Of a DNA stretch of 64,000 nucleotides, positions 58,568-63,753 are shown one piece after another. Positions within the stretch are counted from its first letter, which is position 1. The number at the start of each line of letters is the position of its first letter. The notes below the pieces were generated by a model. The model worked only from the letters and a program-made list of their open reading frames with translations, did no database searches and was not told the DNA's origin. The translations under genes were made by a program, and so were the position numbers. Origin of the DNA: Comamonadaceae bacterium (lineage in GTDB: Bacteria; Pseudomonadota; Gammaproteobacteria; Burkholderiales; Burkholderiaceae_C); assembly GCA_947443645.1 (NCBI GenBank), contig CANEXF010000008.1:1-64000 (forward strand), written 5' to 3'.

Positions 58568-60097
58568 TCATCCCAGATGCAAGGGCACGAAGATTTTGTC
58601 GCTACCGCGCTGAATCAGCAGCGCCACCGTTTTTTCCGCCTTGGCGACTGCTGCGCGCACCTGGTCTATGTTTTTCACCGGTGTGCCGTTGATCGAAATC
58701 AGCACATCACCGGACTGAATGCCCGCCAATGCCGCCGGACCGCTGACCTGCTGCACCAGCAAGCCACTGTCCAGGCCGGCTTGCTGTTTTTCGTCGGGCT
58801 GCAGTGGGCGCAGCGCCAGTCCGAGTTTGCCGCGACCGGCAAGCTGTTGGGGGCCGGCATTGCCTGCAGACTGGTCTGAAGCTTTGTCCTTGATGTTGCC
58901 CAGCCTGGCCGTGATCTCCCGCGCAGTGCCCTGACGCCAGACATCGAGTTTGACGCTTTCACCAGGAGCTGCGAGCGCAATGATGGCCGGCAAATCGCCT
59001 GAAGACACAATGGCCTGGCCGTTGACCTGGCGTATCACGTCACCGGGCAGCAGGCCGGCCTTGTCGGCGGGGCCGCCTTTGTCGACACCTGACACCAGCG
59101 CGCCCGCCGGTTTGTCGAGCTTGAAGGAGTCGGCAAAAGCCTGGTTGACTTCCTGCACGGCGATCCCCAGGCGCGCGTGCTCAACCTTGCCGGTCGCCAC
59201 AATCTGGTCCTTGATCTTTGCGGCGATGTCAATTGGAATGGCAAACGACACGCCCTGGTAGCCGCCGCTGCGGCTGTAGATTTGCGAGTTGATGCCGACG
59301 ACTTCGCCGCGCGCATTGAACAGCGGCCCGCCGGAATTTCCGGGGTTCACGGCGACATCGGTCTGGATGAAGGGCACAGCACTGTCGTCGGGCAGGGACC
59401 GGCCCTTGGCGCTGACCACGCCGGCCGTGACGGTGTTTTCAAAGCCGAAAGGTGAACCTATGGCGAGCACCCATTCACCAACCCGCAGCTCGCTGGTTTT
59501 TCCAAGCGTCACCACGGGCAGGTTTTTGGCATCTATGCGCAGCACGGCAATGTCGGTTTTCGGGTCGGTGCCCAGAACCTTGGCGCGGTATTCGCGGCGG
59601 TCTGTTAGTTTGACAGTGACTTCACTGGCGCCCTGCACCACATGTGCGTTGGTCAAAATGATGCCGTCGCTGCTGACGATAAAACCAGACCCCTGGCCAC
59701 GCGTGGGGACCGCCTCCGACTGGCCCTGCCTGCCCGGGCGCTGACCCTTGCCAAAACCCTGGGCCTGCGGAAAGTGACGGAAAAATTCCAGAAAGGGATC
59801 GCTGGCAATGGCCTCGCTGTCCTGGTCGGCCTCGTCCTGCGCCTGGGCTGAATTGTCCGAGACCTTGGTCGAGCCTGTGACGCTGATGTTGACCACAGCC
59901 GGGCCATAGCGCTCAGTGATCAAGGGAAAGTCTGGCAAGGCCGTGCCGGCCGCGATACCGACGGACGCGCTTGTGGCCTGGGCTGCGAGCGCCGTGCCGT
60001 GTATGGCGTTGAAGGCTCCGACACCGGCGCCACCTATGGCGCCAGCGCTCAGCAGGGCAATCACAAGAGAGGTATTTTTAAGGGCTGCAGATTTCAA
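58568..60097 (-). CDS. degP: DegP/HtrA-type periplasmic serine protease
   Basis: A 509-aa exported protease-chaperone. After a long N-terminal signal region (to about residue 40), the trypsin-like domain shows the catalytic triad: His in ILTNAHVV, Asp in KTDIAVLRI, Ser in NPGNSGGPLFN. Two PDZ domains follow (VSGVDKGGPADKAGLLPGDV; GPAALAGIQSGDVLISINGT). It degrades misfolded envelope proteins. The start is a TTG at 60097 with AAGGAG seven bases upstream. A PmrA/QseB-type box lies 64-92 bases upstream, and the nearest upstream genes encode cardiolipin synthase and a two-component system. Confidence 0.95.
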   Translation of the reverse strand: MKSAALKNTSLVIALLSAGAIGGAGVGAFNAIHGTALAAQATSASVGIAAGTALPDFPLITERYGPAVVNISVTGSTKVSDNSAQAQDEADQDSEAIASDPFLEFFRHFPQAQGFGKGQRPGRQGQSEAVPTRGQGSGFIVSSDGIILTNAHVVQGASEVTVKLTDRREYRAKVLGTDPKTDIAVLRIDAKNLPVVTLGKTSELRVGEWVLAIGSPFGFENTVTAGVVSAKGRSLPDDSAVPFIQTDVAVNPGNSGGPLFNARGEVVGINSQIYSRSGGYQGVSFAIPIDIAAKIKDQIVATGKVEHARLGIAVQEVNQAFADSFKLDKPAGALVSGVDKGGPADKAGLLPGDVIRQVNGQAIVSSGDLPAIIALAAPGESVKLDVWRQGTAREITARLGNIKDKASDQSAGNAGPQQLAGRGKLGLALRPLQPDEKQQAGLDSGLLVQQVSGPAALAGIQSGDVLISINGTPVKNIDQVRAAVAKAEKTVALLIQRGSDKIFVPLHLG

Positions 60098-60160
60098 GGG
60101 GCGACTCCTTCAGTGGTGGATCCGCATGGCTGCGGCAAGCCACAACTGTGAGGTCGGCGC

Positions 60161-60189
60161 CTTAAGTGGGGCTTAAGGTGGGGCTTAAA
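60161..60189. promoter_or_regulatory. tandem CTTAAG box (PmrA/QseB-type response-regulator site)
   Basis: CTTAAG (60161-60166), N5, CTTAAG (60172-60177), N6, CTTAAA (60184-60189). Two hexamers spaced by exactly five bases match the PmrA box pattern YTTAAK-N5-YTTAAK, and a third follows about one helical turn on. It is upstream of the degP-like gene, in the cls-degP gap. Confidence 0.6.
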
Positions 60190-60225
60190 CAGCGGCGAGC
60201 CGACTCGCTCAGGCTGCCGCCCTGG

Positions 60226-61638
60226 CTAGATTTGAAAGCCCAGCCAGCGCACCAGTCCTTCAGCGATATCGCGCAGCAGTGAGGGTTGAACCGGATGAAA
60301 TTCTCTTGCACGGCTGAAGTTTTCATCCATCCACTGCGCGACTTCGGCGATGTCCTGGTGTGCGTAGAACGCCACCATCAATTCAAAATTCAAAAACAGG
60401 CTGCGTGAATCAAGATTGACCGATCCGCACAAGGCCAGCGCCTGGTCCACCACAAGCGCCTTGGCATGCACCATGCCTGTTGCCAGGCGCACGTGCGCGC
60501 CGGCCGCGACCAGGTCGCGCAGCGCACGCGCGCGCGCAATATCCGCCAGCCTGTGGTTGGAGCGCGCCGGCAGCACGAGCTCCACCCGCACGCCGCGCCG
60601 CGCCGCCAGGCACAAGGCGGTCAGCAGGCTGTCATCTGGAACGAAATACGGTGTGACGGCAAGCACGCGCTGCTCGGCCCGAAACAGCGTGGTCAGCAAC
60701 AGGCCGTAGACGGTGTCTTCTGCCTGGTCGGGGCCGCTGGGCACCAGTTGGGCATAGTGCTGGCGCGTGCTGTCTGCTGGCGCGGCAGGCTGGACGGCTT
60801 GCGTTTTCTTGTCGTCAACGTTGGCGGCGAGTCCCAGGCTGTAGCGCCAGTGACGGTTGAACAGCGCTTGCGCCTGCTGCGCCAGTGGGCCGTCTATTGA
60901 AAAGCTCAGGTCTGTCCAGGGCCGTTTGTGCGCCTGGCCAGAAAAATATTCTGCGGCCAGGTTGCGCCCGCCGCTCCAAAAGCGCTGGCTGTCGGCAATC
61001 ACCAGCTTGCGGTGGTTGCGCAGGTTGCCACGACCGCGCAGCAAATTGAACAGCACTGGCATGGACCAGTGCACCTCGATACCAGCTGCCCGCAAGTGGC
61101 GCAGCTGCCTGGACGAGGTGCGCCAGCTGCCCACGGCGTCCAGCAGCAAGCGCACACGCACGCCTGCGGCGGCACGCTCTTCGAGCAAGCCCGCCACGCG
61201 CTTGCCAATGCTGTCGTTGCCAAGCACGTAGGTACACAGATCAAGCTGCGTTTGCGCGCTGTTGATCAGGCTTTCCAGCGCTTCCCAGGCGAGCTGACCG
61301 TGGGTCTGAAAGTCCAGTTTCTGACTGGACTGGGGTGCTGGCAGGCCCATGCCAGCCAGCGTGGCAATGGCGCAGCCTTGAACATCGTCTGTGTGCGAGA
61401 GTGGCGCAGGCGGGGGACGGCGCGTTGGCCTGGCAAACTTTCGCGTGCCCAACACGACAAACAGCGGCAGTCCGAGATAGGGCAGCAGCGTGATGGTCAG
61501 CACCCAGGCCAGGGCGGCCGACGGGTGGCGGTGTTGTCCGCTGGCATGCGTGCCGACGGCGTAAATCAGCAGGCCTGCGAAGACCAGCGCAATATGGATC
61601 AACAGGGCAAAAGGGTAACCGTCGGCGCTGGTCTGCAT
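60226..61638 (-). CDS. cls: cardiolipin synthase (phospholipase D family)
   Basis: A 470-aa protein with two N-terminal membrane segments (residues 10-55) and two PLD catalytic HKD motifs: HRKLVIAD in NLRNHRKLVIADSQRFWSGG and HAKALVVD in MVHAKALVVDQALALCGSVN. It joins phosphatidylglycerol units into cardiolipin in the inner membrane. The ATG at 61638 lies one base after the histidine-kinase stop codon, so the gene is in the two-component-system operon, an unusual and informative link. Confidence 0.93.
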   Translation of the reverse strand: MQTSADGYPFALLIHIALVFAGLLIYAVGTHASGQHRHPSAALAWVLTITLLPYLGLPLFVVLGTRKFARPTRRPPPAPLSHTDDVQGCAIATLAGMGLPAPQSSQKLDFQTHGQLAWEALESLINSAQTQLDLCTYVLGNDSIGKRVAGLLEERAAAGVRVRLLLDAVGSWRTSSRQLRHLRAAGIEVHWSMPVLFNLLRGRGNLRNHRKLVIADSQRFWSGGRNLAAEYFSGQAHKRPWTDLSFSIDGPLAQQAQALFNRHWRYSLGLAANVDDKKTQAVQPAAPADSTRQHYAQLVPSGPDQAEDTVYGLLLTTLFRAEQRVLAVTPYFVPDDSLLTALCLAARRGVRVELVLPARSNHRLADIARARALRDLVAAGAHVRLATGMVHAKALVVDQALALCGSVNLDSRSLFLNFELMVAFYAHQDIAEVAQWMDENFSRAREFHPVQPSLLRDIAEGLVRWLGFQI

Positions 61639-61639
61639 G

Positions 61640-62983
61640 CTAGGCAGCCGAGTCAAGAGCAGGCGCCGTGGCCATGCGCATCTGGACCCGCAGTCCACCC
61701 AGACGCTCCGATCGGTCCAGACTAAAGCCGGCGCCATGTCGGTCGGCAATGGTTTTGACGATGGCCAGGCCCAACCCACTGCCGGTTTCGGTGAGCGCGT
61801 CGTTGGCGCGAAAGAAGCGGTCAAACACGCGCAGCTGGGCCTCCTCGGCGATGCCGGGGCCGCTGTCTTCCACTGTCAGCACGGCCTGGCCTTCCACGAC
61901 CTCAACGCTGATGTCTATCTGGCCTAAGGCGGGCGTGTACTTGATGGCGTTTTCCAGCAGATTTCTCAGCACCACGCGCAGGGCCTCAGGCTGACCCAGC
62001 ACCCAGGCTGACTGATGGTTGTCCAGGCCCAGGTCCAGCTGCTTGAGCCTGGCCTGGGGCAGCAGGTCGGCTACGGTCTGCCGTACCAGCTCAAGCAAAT
62101 CCAGTGTCTCAAATGGTGGCGCGTGGCTTGCACCTTCCTCGCGAGCCAGGACCAGCAGCTGCTCCACCAGCCGTATCGCCCGGTCTATGCCCTGGTTCAG
62201 CCGCGCAAGGTCGGCCTCATGCGTGGCGGACAGTTCGCCCTTGCGCGCTATGGTCTGGGCCTGAAGCTTCAGTGCCGTCAATGGCGAGCGCAGCTCGTGC
62301 GCTGCATCGGCGACAAAATTTTTCTGCGTGTCAAAGGCACGGCGTACCCGGTCAAACAACAAGTTGAGTTCATCAACCAGGGGGCGCACCTCGTCGGGCA
62401 GATCGTCATTGGCCAGCGGCGAAAAATCGTCAGCGGCCCGATTGGCCAGCTGACTGCGGGCCCGCGCTATCGGTGCCAGAGAGCGGTTGATCACCCACCA
62501 CACTGCCAGCATCAACAAAAGGGTGAGCAAGGCAAAAGGAAGCAGCGCCTTGGCCGCCAGCGACCTGGCGCGCGTGCTGCGAGCGCTCAGGTCTTGCGCG
62601 ATTTGTACGGTCTGCAAGGGCGTTTGCAGCGTGTACACGCGGTAGCGGTTGCCATTGGCCTGGACATCCGAGAAGCCCAGCACGGCACGCGGCGGCAAGG
62701 CGGAGTCTGTGGAGCGAAAAATCTGTGTGCCGTCTTGCCCCCAGATTTGCACATAAAGGTCAAAGTCAGTCGCCGCCTCAGCGCTTTCAAGCGGCAAGCC
62801 CAGCGGCACGCCGCTTCGCATGGCGCGTGCGACCTGCTGCAGATGATCGTCAAACATTGCATCGGCCTGCTGCAGTGCGCCACGGTAGACCGTGATGGCC
62901 TGCAGGACCGCAACCAAAAAAATGGCCAGCAGCACGAACCACAGCAGGCGTGCCCGCAGTGAATGCGAGGTTTGCGTTGTCAT
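61640..62983 (-). CDS. sensor histidine kinase (QseC/TctE type)
   Basis: A 447-aa membrane kinase. There are two membrane segments (residues 12-34 and about 145-165) with a periplasmic sensor of about 110 residues between them, then HAMP and the H-box FVADAAHELRSPLTALKLQA, N-box LRNLLENAIKYTP, G1 VEDSGPGIAEE, and G2 GSGLGLAIVKTIADRHGAG. It overlaps the response-regulator stop by four bases (ATGA) and is followed after one base by the cardiolipin synthase gene. The sensor domain's signal is unknown. Confidence 0.94.
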   Translation of the reverse strand: MTTQTSHSLRARLLWFVLLAIFLVAVLQAITVYRGALQQADAMFDDHLQQVARAMRSGVPLGLPLESAEAATDFDLYVQIWGQDGTQIFRSTDSALPPRAVLGFSDVQANGNRYRVYTLQTPLQTVQIAQDLSARSTRARSLAAKALLPFALLTLLLMLAVWWVINRSLAPIARARSQLANRAADDFSPLANDDLPDEVRPLVDELNLLFDRVRRAFDTQKNFVADAAHELRSPLTALKLQAQTIARKGELSATHEADLARLNQGIDRAIRLVEQLLVLAREEGASHAPPFETLDLLELVRQTVADLLPQARLKQLDLGLDNHQSAWVLGQPEALRVVLRNLLENAIKYTPALGQIDISVEVVEGQAVLTVEDSGPGIAEEAQLRVFDRFFRANDALTETGSGLGLAIVKTIADRHGAGFSLDRSERLGGLRVQMRMATAPALDSAA

Positions 62984-63639
62984 GGCTTGGGCACCAGATA
63001 GCCCAGGCCACGCACGGTTTGAATCAGTTCGGTGCCAAGCTTTTTGCGCACGCCGTGGATATAGACTTCCACTGCATTGCTGCTGACATCGTCCTTCCAG
63101 CTGAAAAGTTTTTCTTCGAGTTGGGTGCGGGAGAGCACGGCGCCGGGGCGCGCCAGCAAGGCTTCCAGAACCGCCCATTCACGGGCTGACAGCGACACCG
63201 GCTGACCATGCGCGGTAGCCTCGTGCGTGGCCGGGTTCAGGCTGATGCCTTTGTATTCAAACAGGGGCTCGGCCCGGCCTGCGCTGCGGCGCAGCAGGGC
63301 GCGCAGGCGGGCCAGCAGTTCCTCGGTGTCATAGGGTTTGAGGACATAGTCGTCGGCGCCGGCGTCCAGTCCGGCAATGCGTTCGCTGATGCCGTCGCGC
63401 GCCGTCGCAACCAGCACCGGAACTGCGTTGTGGCGTGCGCGAAGTGCGCGCAGCACATCCAGGCCGTCCCGCTTGGGCAAGCCGAGGTCTAGCAACACCA
63501 GGTCGTAGCACTCGGATTGCAGTGCCTGGTCAGCCATGCTGCCATCACGTACCCAATCGACTGCATAGTTCTCGGCGCGCAGCACTTGCAGCAAGGCCTC
63601 TCCGATCATGGTGTCGTCTTCAACCAGCAGTAAACGCAT
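62980..63639 (-). CDS. OmpR-family response regulator (QseB/PmrA/TctD type)
   Basis: A 219-aa regulator. The receiver domain has MRLLLVEDDTMIGEALLQVL, phospho-acceptor Asp in LVLLDLGLPKRDG (Asp51) and conserved Lys in DYVLKPYD. The OmpR-type winged HTH has LSAREWAVLEALLARPGAVL and VYIHGVRKKLGTELIQTVRGLGY. This is the QseB/PmrA/TctD size class, whose members bind TTAA-type tandem sites like the one found at 60161-60189. GGAG precedes the ATG at 63639. Confidence 0.95.
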   Translation of the reverse strand: MRLLLVEDDTMIGEALLQVLRAENYAVDWVRDGSMADQALQSECYDLVLLDLGLPKRDGLDVLRALRARHNAVPVLVATARDGISERIAGLDAGADDYVLKPYDTEELLARLRALLRRSAGRAEPLFEYKGISLNPATHEATAHGQPVSLSAREWAVLEALLARPGAVLSRTQLEEKLFSWKDDVSSNAVEVYIHGVRKKLGTELIQTVRGLGYLVPKP

Positions 63640-63753
63640 CGGTGCTCCGTGTCTCGGTCGTATCGAGTCCTGCAGTATGCAACGCGCGGCCAGCCAGTCT
63701 AAACCCGGGTGCAAGCGCCAGGGTTCAGCTGCGTGGCCGAAAAAGCAAGTCTT

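Follow-up and report, generated by a model that had tools for sequence, protein, structure and literature searches.

In enteric bacteria the two-component system CpxAR switches on degP, acting through a regulator of another branch and another box than those described here, which lie in a 64,000-nucleotide stretch of a Comamonadaceae genome (contig CANEXF010000008.1 of assembly GCA_947443645.1; hereafter the window). This stretch carries genes for a response regulator (RR), a sensor histidine kinase (HK), a cardiolipin-synthase-like protein (cls) and a DegP-type protease (degP, product DegP-A), the last of them behind a PmrA-type box. Taken as a whole, the locus and its relatives are best explained by the RR-HK pair switching degP on through this box, a reading to which we assign a probability of about 0.82.

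PmrA (BasR) resembles the window RR in two respects: the RR aligns without gaps to the PmrA/BasR chains 8jo2 and 4s04 across 216 residues, and PmrA too has two half-sites 5 bp apart, the Klebsiella pneumoniae box being CTTAAT-N5-CCTAAG in the available part of PMC3973317. It differs in that the RR falls under the curated PmrA cut-off (233 bits, cut-off 330) and in having degP as its apparent target instead of lipid A genes; as to the latter, EptA_B_N was not found in the window genome. In Burkholderia cenocepacia a two-component system (BCAL2831-BCAL2830) is likewise clustered with a protease of this kind, HtrA BCAL2829 (PMC5295037, available part), where, unlike in the window, that part of the source gives no binding site. 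Two Burkholderia loci of our own sets (L174 and L178) carry an RR (62-63% identity), HK and DegP in the window's order, with the box and with no cls match, and from gene order we infer that BCAL2831 is the RR of these loci. The mrgRS system of Burkholderia pseudomallei was set aside as a named homologue, its kinase being of the hybrid type with residue numbers above 1000 and MucD/HtrA going unmentioned in the available part of PMC1557856. A literature search, for which subscription papers were mostly beyond reach, found no report of a PmrA-type box at degP or htrA.

The gene cluster and the box before degP

The features on which the argument rests are the following (positions are those of the window).

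62980-63639, minus strand: RR gene, an OmpR/PmrA-type response regulator of 219 amino acids (aa) (Response_reg and Trans_reg_C, NCBIfam, alignment)
61640-62983, minus strand: HK gene, a sensor histidine kinase of 447 aa (2CSK_N sensor, HisKA, HATPase_c)
60226-61638, minus strand: cls gene, a cardiolipin-synthase-like PLD protein of 470 aa (domain matches; patchy in the cluster)
60161-60177, minus strand: PmrA-type box CTTAAG-CCCCA-CTTAAG of the degP promoter (pattern scan, conservation, pairing with the -10 element)
60145-60150, minus strand: -10-like element CACAGT, 10 nt past the box (conservation across promoters)
58568-60097, minus strand: degP gene (DegP-A), a Do-family protease of 509 aa with a TTG start (TIGR02037; trypsin and two PDZ stretches)

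A first-pass annotation of the same DNA had described a 4-base overlap of the RR and HK genes, a cls start 1 base past the HK stop and degP as the next gene on the strand; this arrangement was confirmed (overlap at 62980-62983, single intervening base at 61639). Its PmrA-type box ahead of degP was borne out as well, in the form of two YTTAAG-like half-sites with a 5-bp spacer. Response_reg and Trans_reg_C both exceed their Pfam cut-offs in the RR, which places it in the OmpR/PhoB type; its best NCBIfam models are PmrA and QseB, each under the curated cut-off, and the QseBC models failed (QseB 220 bits, cut-off 345; QseC 223 bits, cut-off 475). The degP product passes TIGR02037 (479 bits, cut-off 416). 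The cls product has PLD domains and PLDc_N, remains below the bacterial cardiolipin synthase model TIGR04265 (250 bits, cut-off 290), and is cls-like by its domains.

An HK orthologue (E <= 1e-80) was found in 39 of 87 genomes of the genus, and DegP-A lies downstream of HK on the same strand in 34 of 38 HK regions. Of the other four, L108 stops at a contig end, L128 is on a broken contig, and two have a displaced degP, 17 kb from HK in G060 and 5.6 kb in G075, both with boxes of 12/12. HK and DegP-A co-occur in 38 genomes, the three exceptions (G028, G072, G077) sitting at contig ends. The conserved unit in the relatives is RR-HK-degP.

Promoters were scored by their match to YTTAAG-N5-YYTAAG over 12 positions. 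All 36 DegP-A promoters of the genus, the window's included, scored 11 or 12 (33 at 12, three at 11); where the gene order is kept the box is thus conserved before degP, the point on which the first-pass annotation had staked its proposal. In the genus promoters, where this spacing was counted, 10 nt separate the box from the -10-like element. TAAG is invariant in both half-sites in 38/38 promoters, over which the mean majority share is 0.95 for each half-site, 0.60 for the 5-nt spacer, 0.72 for the 10-nt spacer and 0.92 for the -10 element. As judged by eye, the HK stop codon and the first half-site share bases in several species. In L112 (G020) and L127 (G069) about 1 kb lies between HK and degP, with what appear by eye to be an ECF-sigma-type gene and a small partner; the box is kept.

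The second DegP of the genus genomes, 44-49% identical to DegP-A, provided a paralogue control. None of 36 promoters of this MucD type reached 11/12 (best 10), and two intermediate DegPs (55-57% identical) were likewise below 11/12. In the window genome the second DegP (G000:C8:110988-112466) stands behind rpoE, rseA and rseB in an rpoE-rseA-rseB-mucD-like operon (G000:C8:108446-112466; names by eye), about 50 kb from the window degP on the same contig. The window degP itself lies outside this operon, and it is the paralogue that occupies the mucD position. The operon also places a DegP-type protease under an envelope-stress regulator, but that protease is the genome's second DegP, without the box.

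Frequency of the box in the genomes

The genome scan for the tandem box that had been suggested as a check was run with YTTAAG-N5-YTTAAG, a palindromic pattern that covers both strands; without mismatches it has a single location in the 3,225,575-base genome. At two mismatches or fewer the window has 9 matches against 4.2 expected. With YTTAAG-N5-YYTAAG and at most one mismatch, 14 matches were obtained in the window genome against 47 for the reversed control, so that nothing points to a large regulon.

That the degP box is a chance match would agree with two of these counts: the reversed control of the first pattern also has 1 match in the window genome, and across the genus the bare pattern, present in 31/61 genomes, is not above its reversed control, so that one exact match is weak by itself. 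The bare hexamer pattern was accordingly rejected as genome-wide evidence, its reversed control being equally frequent. A chance match is, however, already contradicted by conservation (36/36 in the genus and 44/50 in the wider scan described below), by the score of 0/36 at the MucD paralogue, and by the box plus -10 pattern, which gave 46 matches in the 87 genomes against 1 for the reversed pattern; its probability is negligible. Forty of these 46 matches lie no more than 400 nt upstream of DegP-A (31) or of the cognate RR (9). Among the six located elsewhere, one (G028:C109) comes directly after the HK stop, with 0.2 kb left to a contig end, by which degP would be cut off. The case for the box rests on its position, spacing and conservation, computed, like the gene order, the paralogue control and the co-variation described below, from sequence.

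The box beyond the genus and its co-variation with the recognition helix

In a wider scan, species genomes were searched with the HK alignment and the best 80 loci were taken, among them loci of Variovorax, Paraburkholderia, Burkholderia, Pandoraea, Accumulibacter and one Methylococcaceae member; in Massilia-type Oxalobacteraceae degP lies upstream of the RR. DegP was present on the retrieved stretch in 50 of the 80, and the degP boxes scored 11 or 12 in 44 of these, 10 in three and 8-9 in three.

The three lowest loci (L167, L182 and L205) are those in which, among the DegP-linked loci, the RR helix carries S191 and Q196. A prediction was recorded, and 40 more regions were then chosen by similarity to the L205 RR, of which 39 were new and examined and 25 had a usable DegP. 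The boxes were scored with a pattern blind to position 6, three duplicates being dropped. At S/T191-Q196 loci all 22 degP boxes lacked G at position 6 of either half-site; at E191 loci (n=82) the blind pick ended in G in both half-sites in 74 cases, in one in five cases and in none in three, and the one locus with an unread helix has G in both. The exact variant box that had been predicted held only loosely, C- and A-ended half-sites being common.

The residues concerned lie in a well-described part of the protein. The window RR keeps N188, H195, R171, R198 and R210, which are given as DNA contacts of PmrA in the available part of PMC3973317; there, position 196 is the equivalent of PhoB Arg201, which contacts guanine, and Glu191 pairs with Arg171 in free PmrA. 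Because the box is conserved, is absent at the MucD-type DegP and co-varies with the RR helix, the window RR very probably binds it, and very probably activates degP. We further consider it likely that the system is a near-single-target DegP two-component switch, widespread in Burkholderiales and apart from rpoE-mucD, of which one lineage (the Ideonella/Rubrivivax/Aquincola group) has rewired regulator and promoter, with E191 changed to S/T, position 196 to Q, and the terminal G lost in both half-sites.

Several observations weigh against this account. In eight of the 82 E191 loci the blind pick is without the terminal G in one half-site or in both; five of the eight contain, in addition, a box with both Gs that scores 11 or 12, two reach 11 with a T at the end of one half, and one scores 10. 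The blind pattern was itself devised after a first look at the boxes of the new regions. On a quick tree the S/T191 rows form one clade, apart from the paralogues, with support of 80 each, so that the co-variation of helix and box may be a single event; and PmrA Asn196 makes no DNA contact in the model of PMC3973317, as far as its available part goes. Outside the genus, six of the 50 wider loci are under 11/12, and RR promoters reach at least 11 in 7/79 cases (wider scan) and 1/39 (family set), so that autoregulation, considered below, is not general.

Under one alternative, a different regulator of the PmrA/QseB kind, for instance a canonical PmrAB driving eptA, would occupy the box, and the adjacent two-component system would be a mere neighbour. 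It draws on six genus loci (L032, L035, L043, L044, L047 and L054) in which a PmrA-like regulator 49-51% identical to the RR has a box just upstream, a further point against RR-HK control, and on the location of three of five stray box plus -10 matches near EptA-like genes. We nevertheless regard it as improbable, since the box letters track the helix of the neighbouring RR, box-bearing DegP-A co-occurs with the neighbouring two-component system, EptA_B_N has no match in the window genome, and the contig that bears this genome's own paralogue of about 50% identity is free of boxes at up to one mismatch. EptA_B_N was confirmed for the neighbours of two stray matches, L365 and L387, the L365 match pointing away from that gene. 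At L043, where the PmrA-like regulator has its box just upstream, PAP2 and a probable EptA gene stand on the other side. The other two stray perfect box plus -10 sites, in L374 (G028; near 1501, upstream of a patatin-like phospholipase gene) and in L373 (G047; upstream of a 154-aa open reading frame without a Pfam match), are possible extra targets.

The RR promoter

63674-63703, minus strand: RR promoter region, with a -10-like CATACT kept and an apparent decayed box remnant TTTAGA (sequence)

The box score of this RR-HK-cls promoter is 7/12. Among the genus RR promoters 27/37 score 11 or 12 within 150 nt, in addition to which a box stands some 240 nt ahead of the RR of G083. Most genus members thus carry a copy of the box at the RR promoter, which would serve autoregulation; in the window genome this copy has apparently been lost, and degP is hence probably the main target. 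Two scores of 12/12 upstream of HK in the control set were dismissed as an index artefact of truncated HK genes.

The place of cls

The first-pass annotation had predicted that the regulator controls both membrane lipids and periplasmic proteolysis. The proteolytic half is well supported by the conservation of the box and its co-variation with the helix; the lipid half is not supported for the window genome, given the low score of the RR-HK-cls promoter, the location of cls upstream of the degP box in the window, and the patchy presence of the gene. Among the genus loci seen, cls is in the cluster in three genomes, namely the window genome, L099 (G065) and L003 (G006); loci of the wider sets have it next to the system (L141, L147 and, judged by coordinates, L356) or some 2 kb away (L359). 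Over 13 loci elsewhere in the genus, cls genes had best box scores of 7-10/12. Both Paracidovorax (L147) and G221 (L356) have cls downstream of degP-RR-HK, with the degP box present, so that other organisms may have a lipid link. In the cls tree the seven cls genes from clusters group on the same side, though weakly supported (74/24), and the link of cls to the system may be old and patchily kept.

These data bear on a second alternative, in which the box-bound RR acts as a repressor of degP, or in which degP and cls are both under the RR here. The box is placed as for an activator of this class, a placement with which repression is also compatible; by its spacing cls is likely co-transcribed with RR and HK, and the grouping of the cluster cls genes, weak as it is, points the same way. 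On the other hand, the spacing of box and -10 fits activation at a promoter without a -35 element, as is familiar from this class, and the scores at the RR-HK-cls promoter and at cls upstream regions elsewhere are low, so that this alternative appears unlikely.

Other elements of the degP promoter

60184-60189, minus strand: extra TTTAAG hexamer, outside the conserved box (sequence)
60122-60135, minus strand: inverted repeat CCGCA-GCCA-TGCGG in the degP leader (leader comparison)

The plus strand at 60161-60189 reads CTTAAG-N5-CTTAAG-N6-CTTAAA, which in the direction of degP is TTTAAG-N6-CTTAAG-N5-CTTAAG, followed after 10 nt by CACAGT (60150-60145). The third hexamer is spaced 12 bp, not 11 bp, from its neighbouring half-site; being off phase and not conserved, it was set aside as a component of the box, and has the look of a duplicate made by slippage. 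Among 39 degP leaders, most have a GGCAC-N6..8-GTGCC inverted repeat just past the presumed transcription start, in place of which the window carries CCGCA-GCCA-TGCGG. In these leaders 95.4% of pair cells pair, with a double change in only 2 pairs and 11-22 of 500 shuffles matching the scores; the repeat may be an RNA hairpin or an operator.

Proposed mechanism and implications

In the mechanism that we propose, HK would phosphorylate the RR, which would bind the two direct half-sites (60177-60161) as a head-to-tail dimer; the bound RR would recruit RNA polymerase to the adjacent -10 element, the box occupying the place of a -35 element, and so switch on degP. From binding, activation and co-transcription to a role in the envelope, these steps are what we infer for a local switch of one periplasmic protease, parallel to the rpoE operon with its MucD-type DegP. 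In the window genome cls would be carried along in the RR-HK transcript.

The analysis thus offers a probable binding site and target for an uncharacterised regulator of many Burkholderiales, and a way, separate from the rpoE operon, in which a second DegP could be controlled. It suggests a site behind the link between a two-component system and HtrA that is known in Burkholderia cenocepacia. Finally, it yields a two-residue hypothesis for the DNA specificity of PmrA-class regulators; if true, the lineage with the rewired regulator and promoter would represent a natural, testable specificity switch of a regulator of this class.

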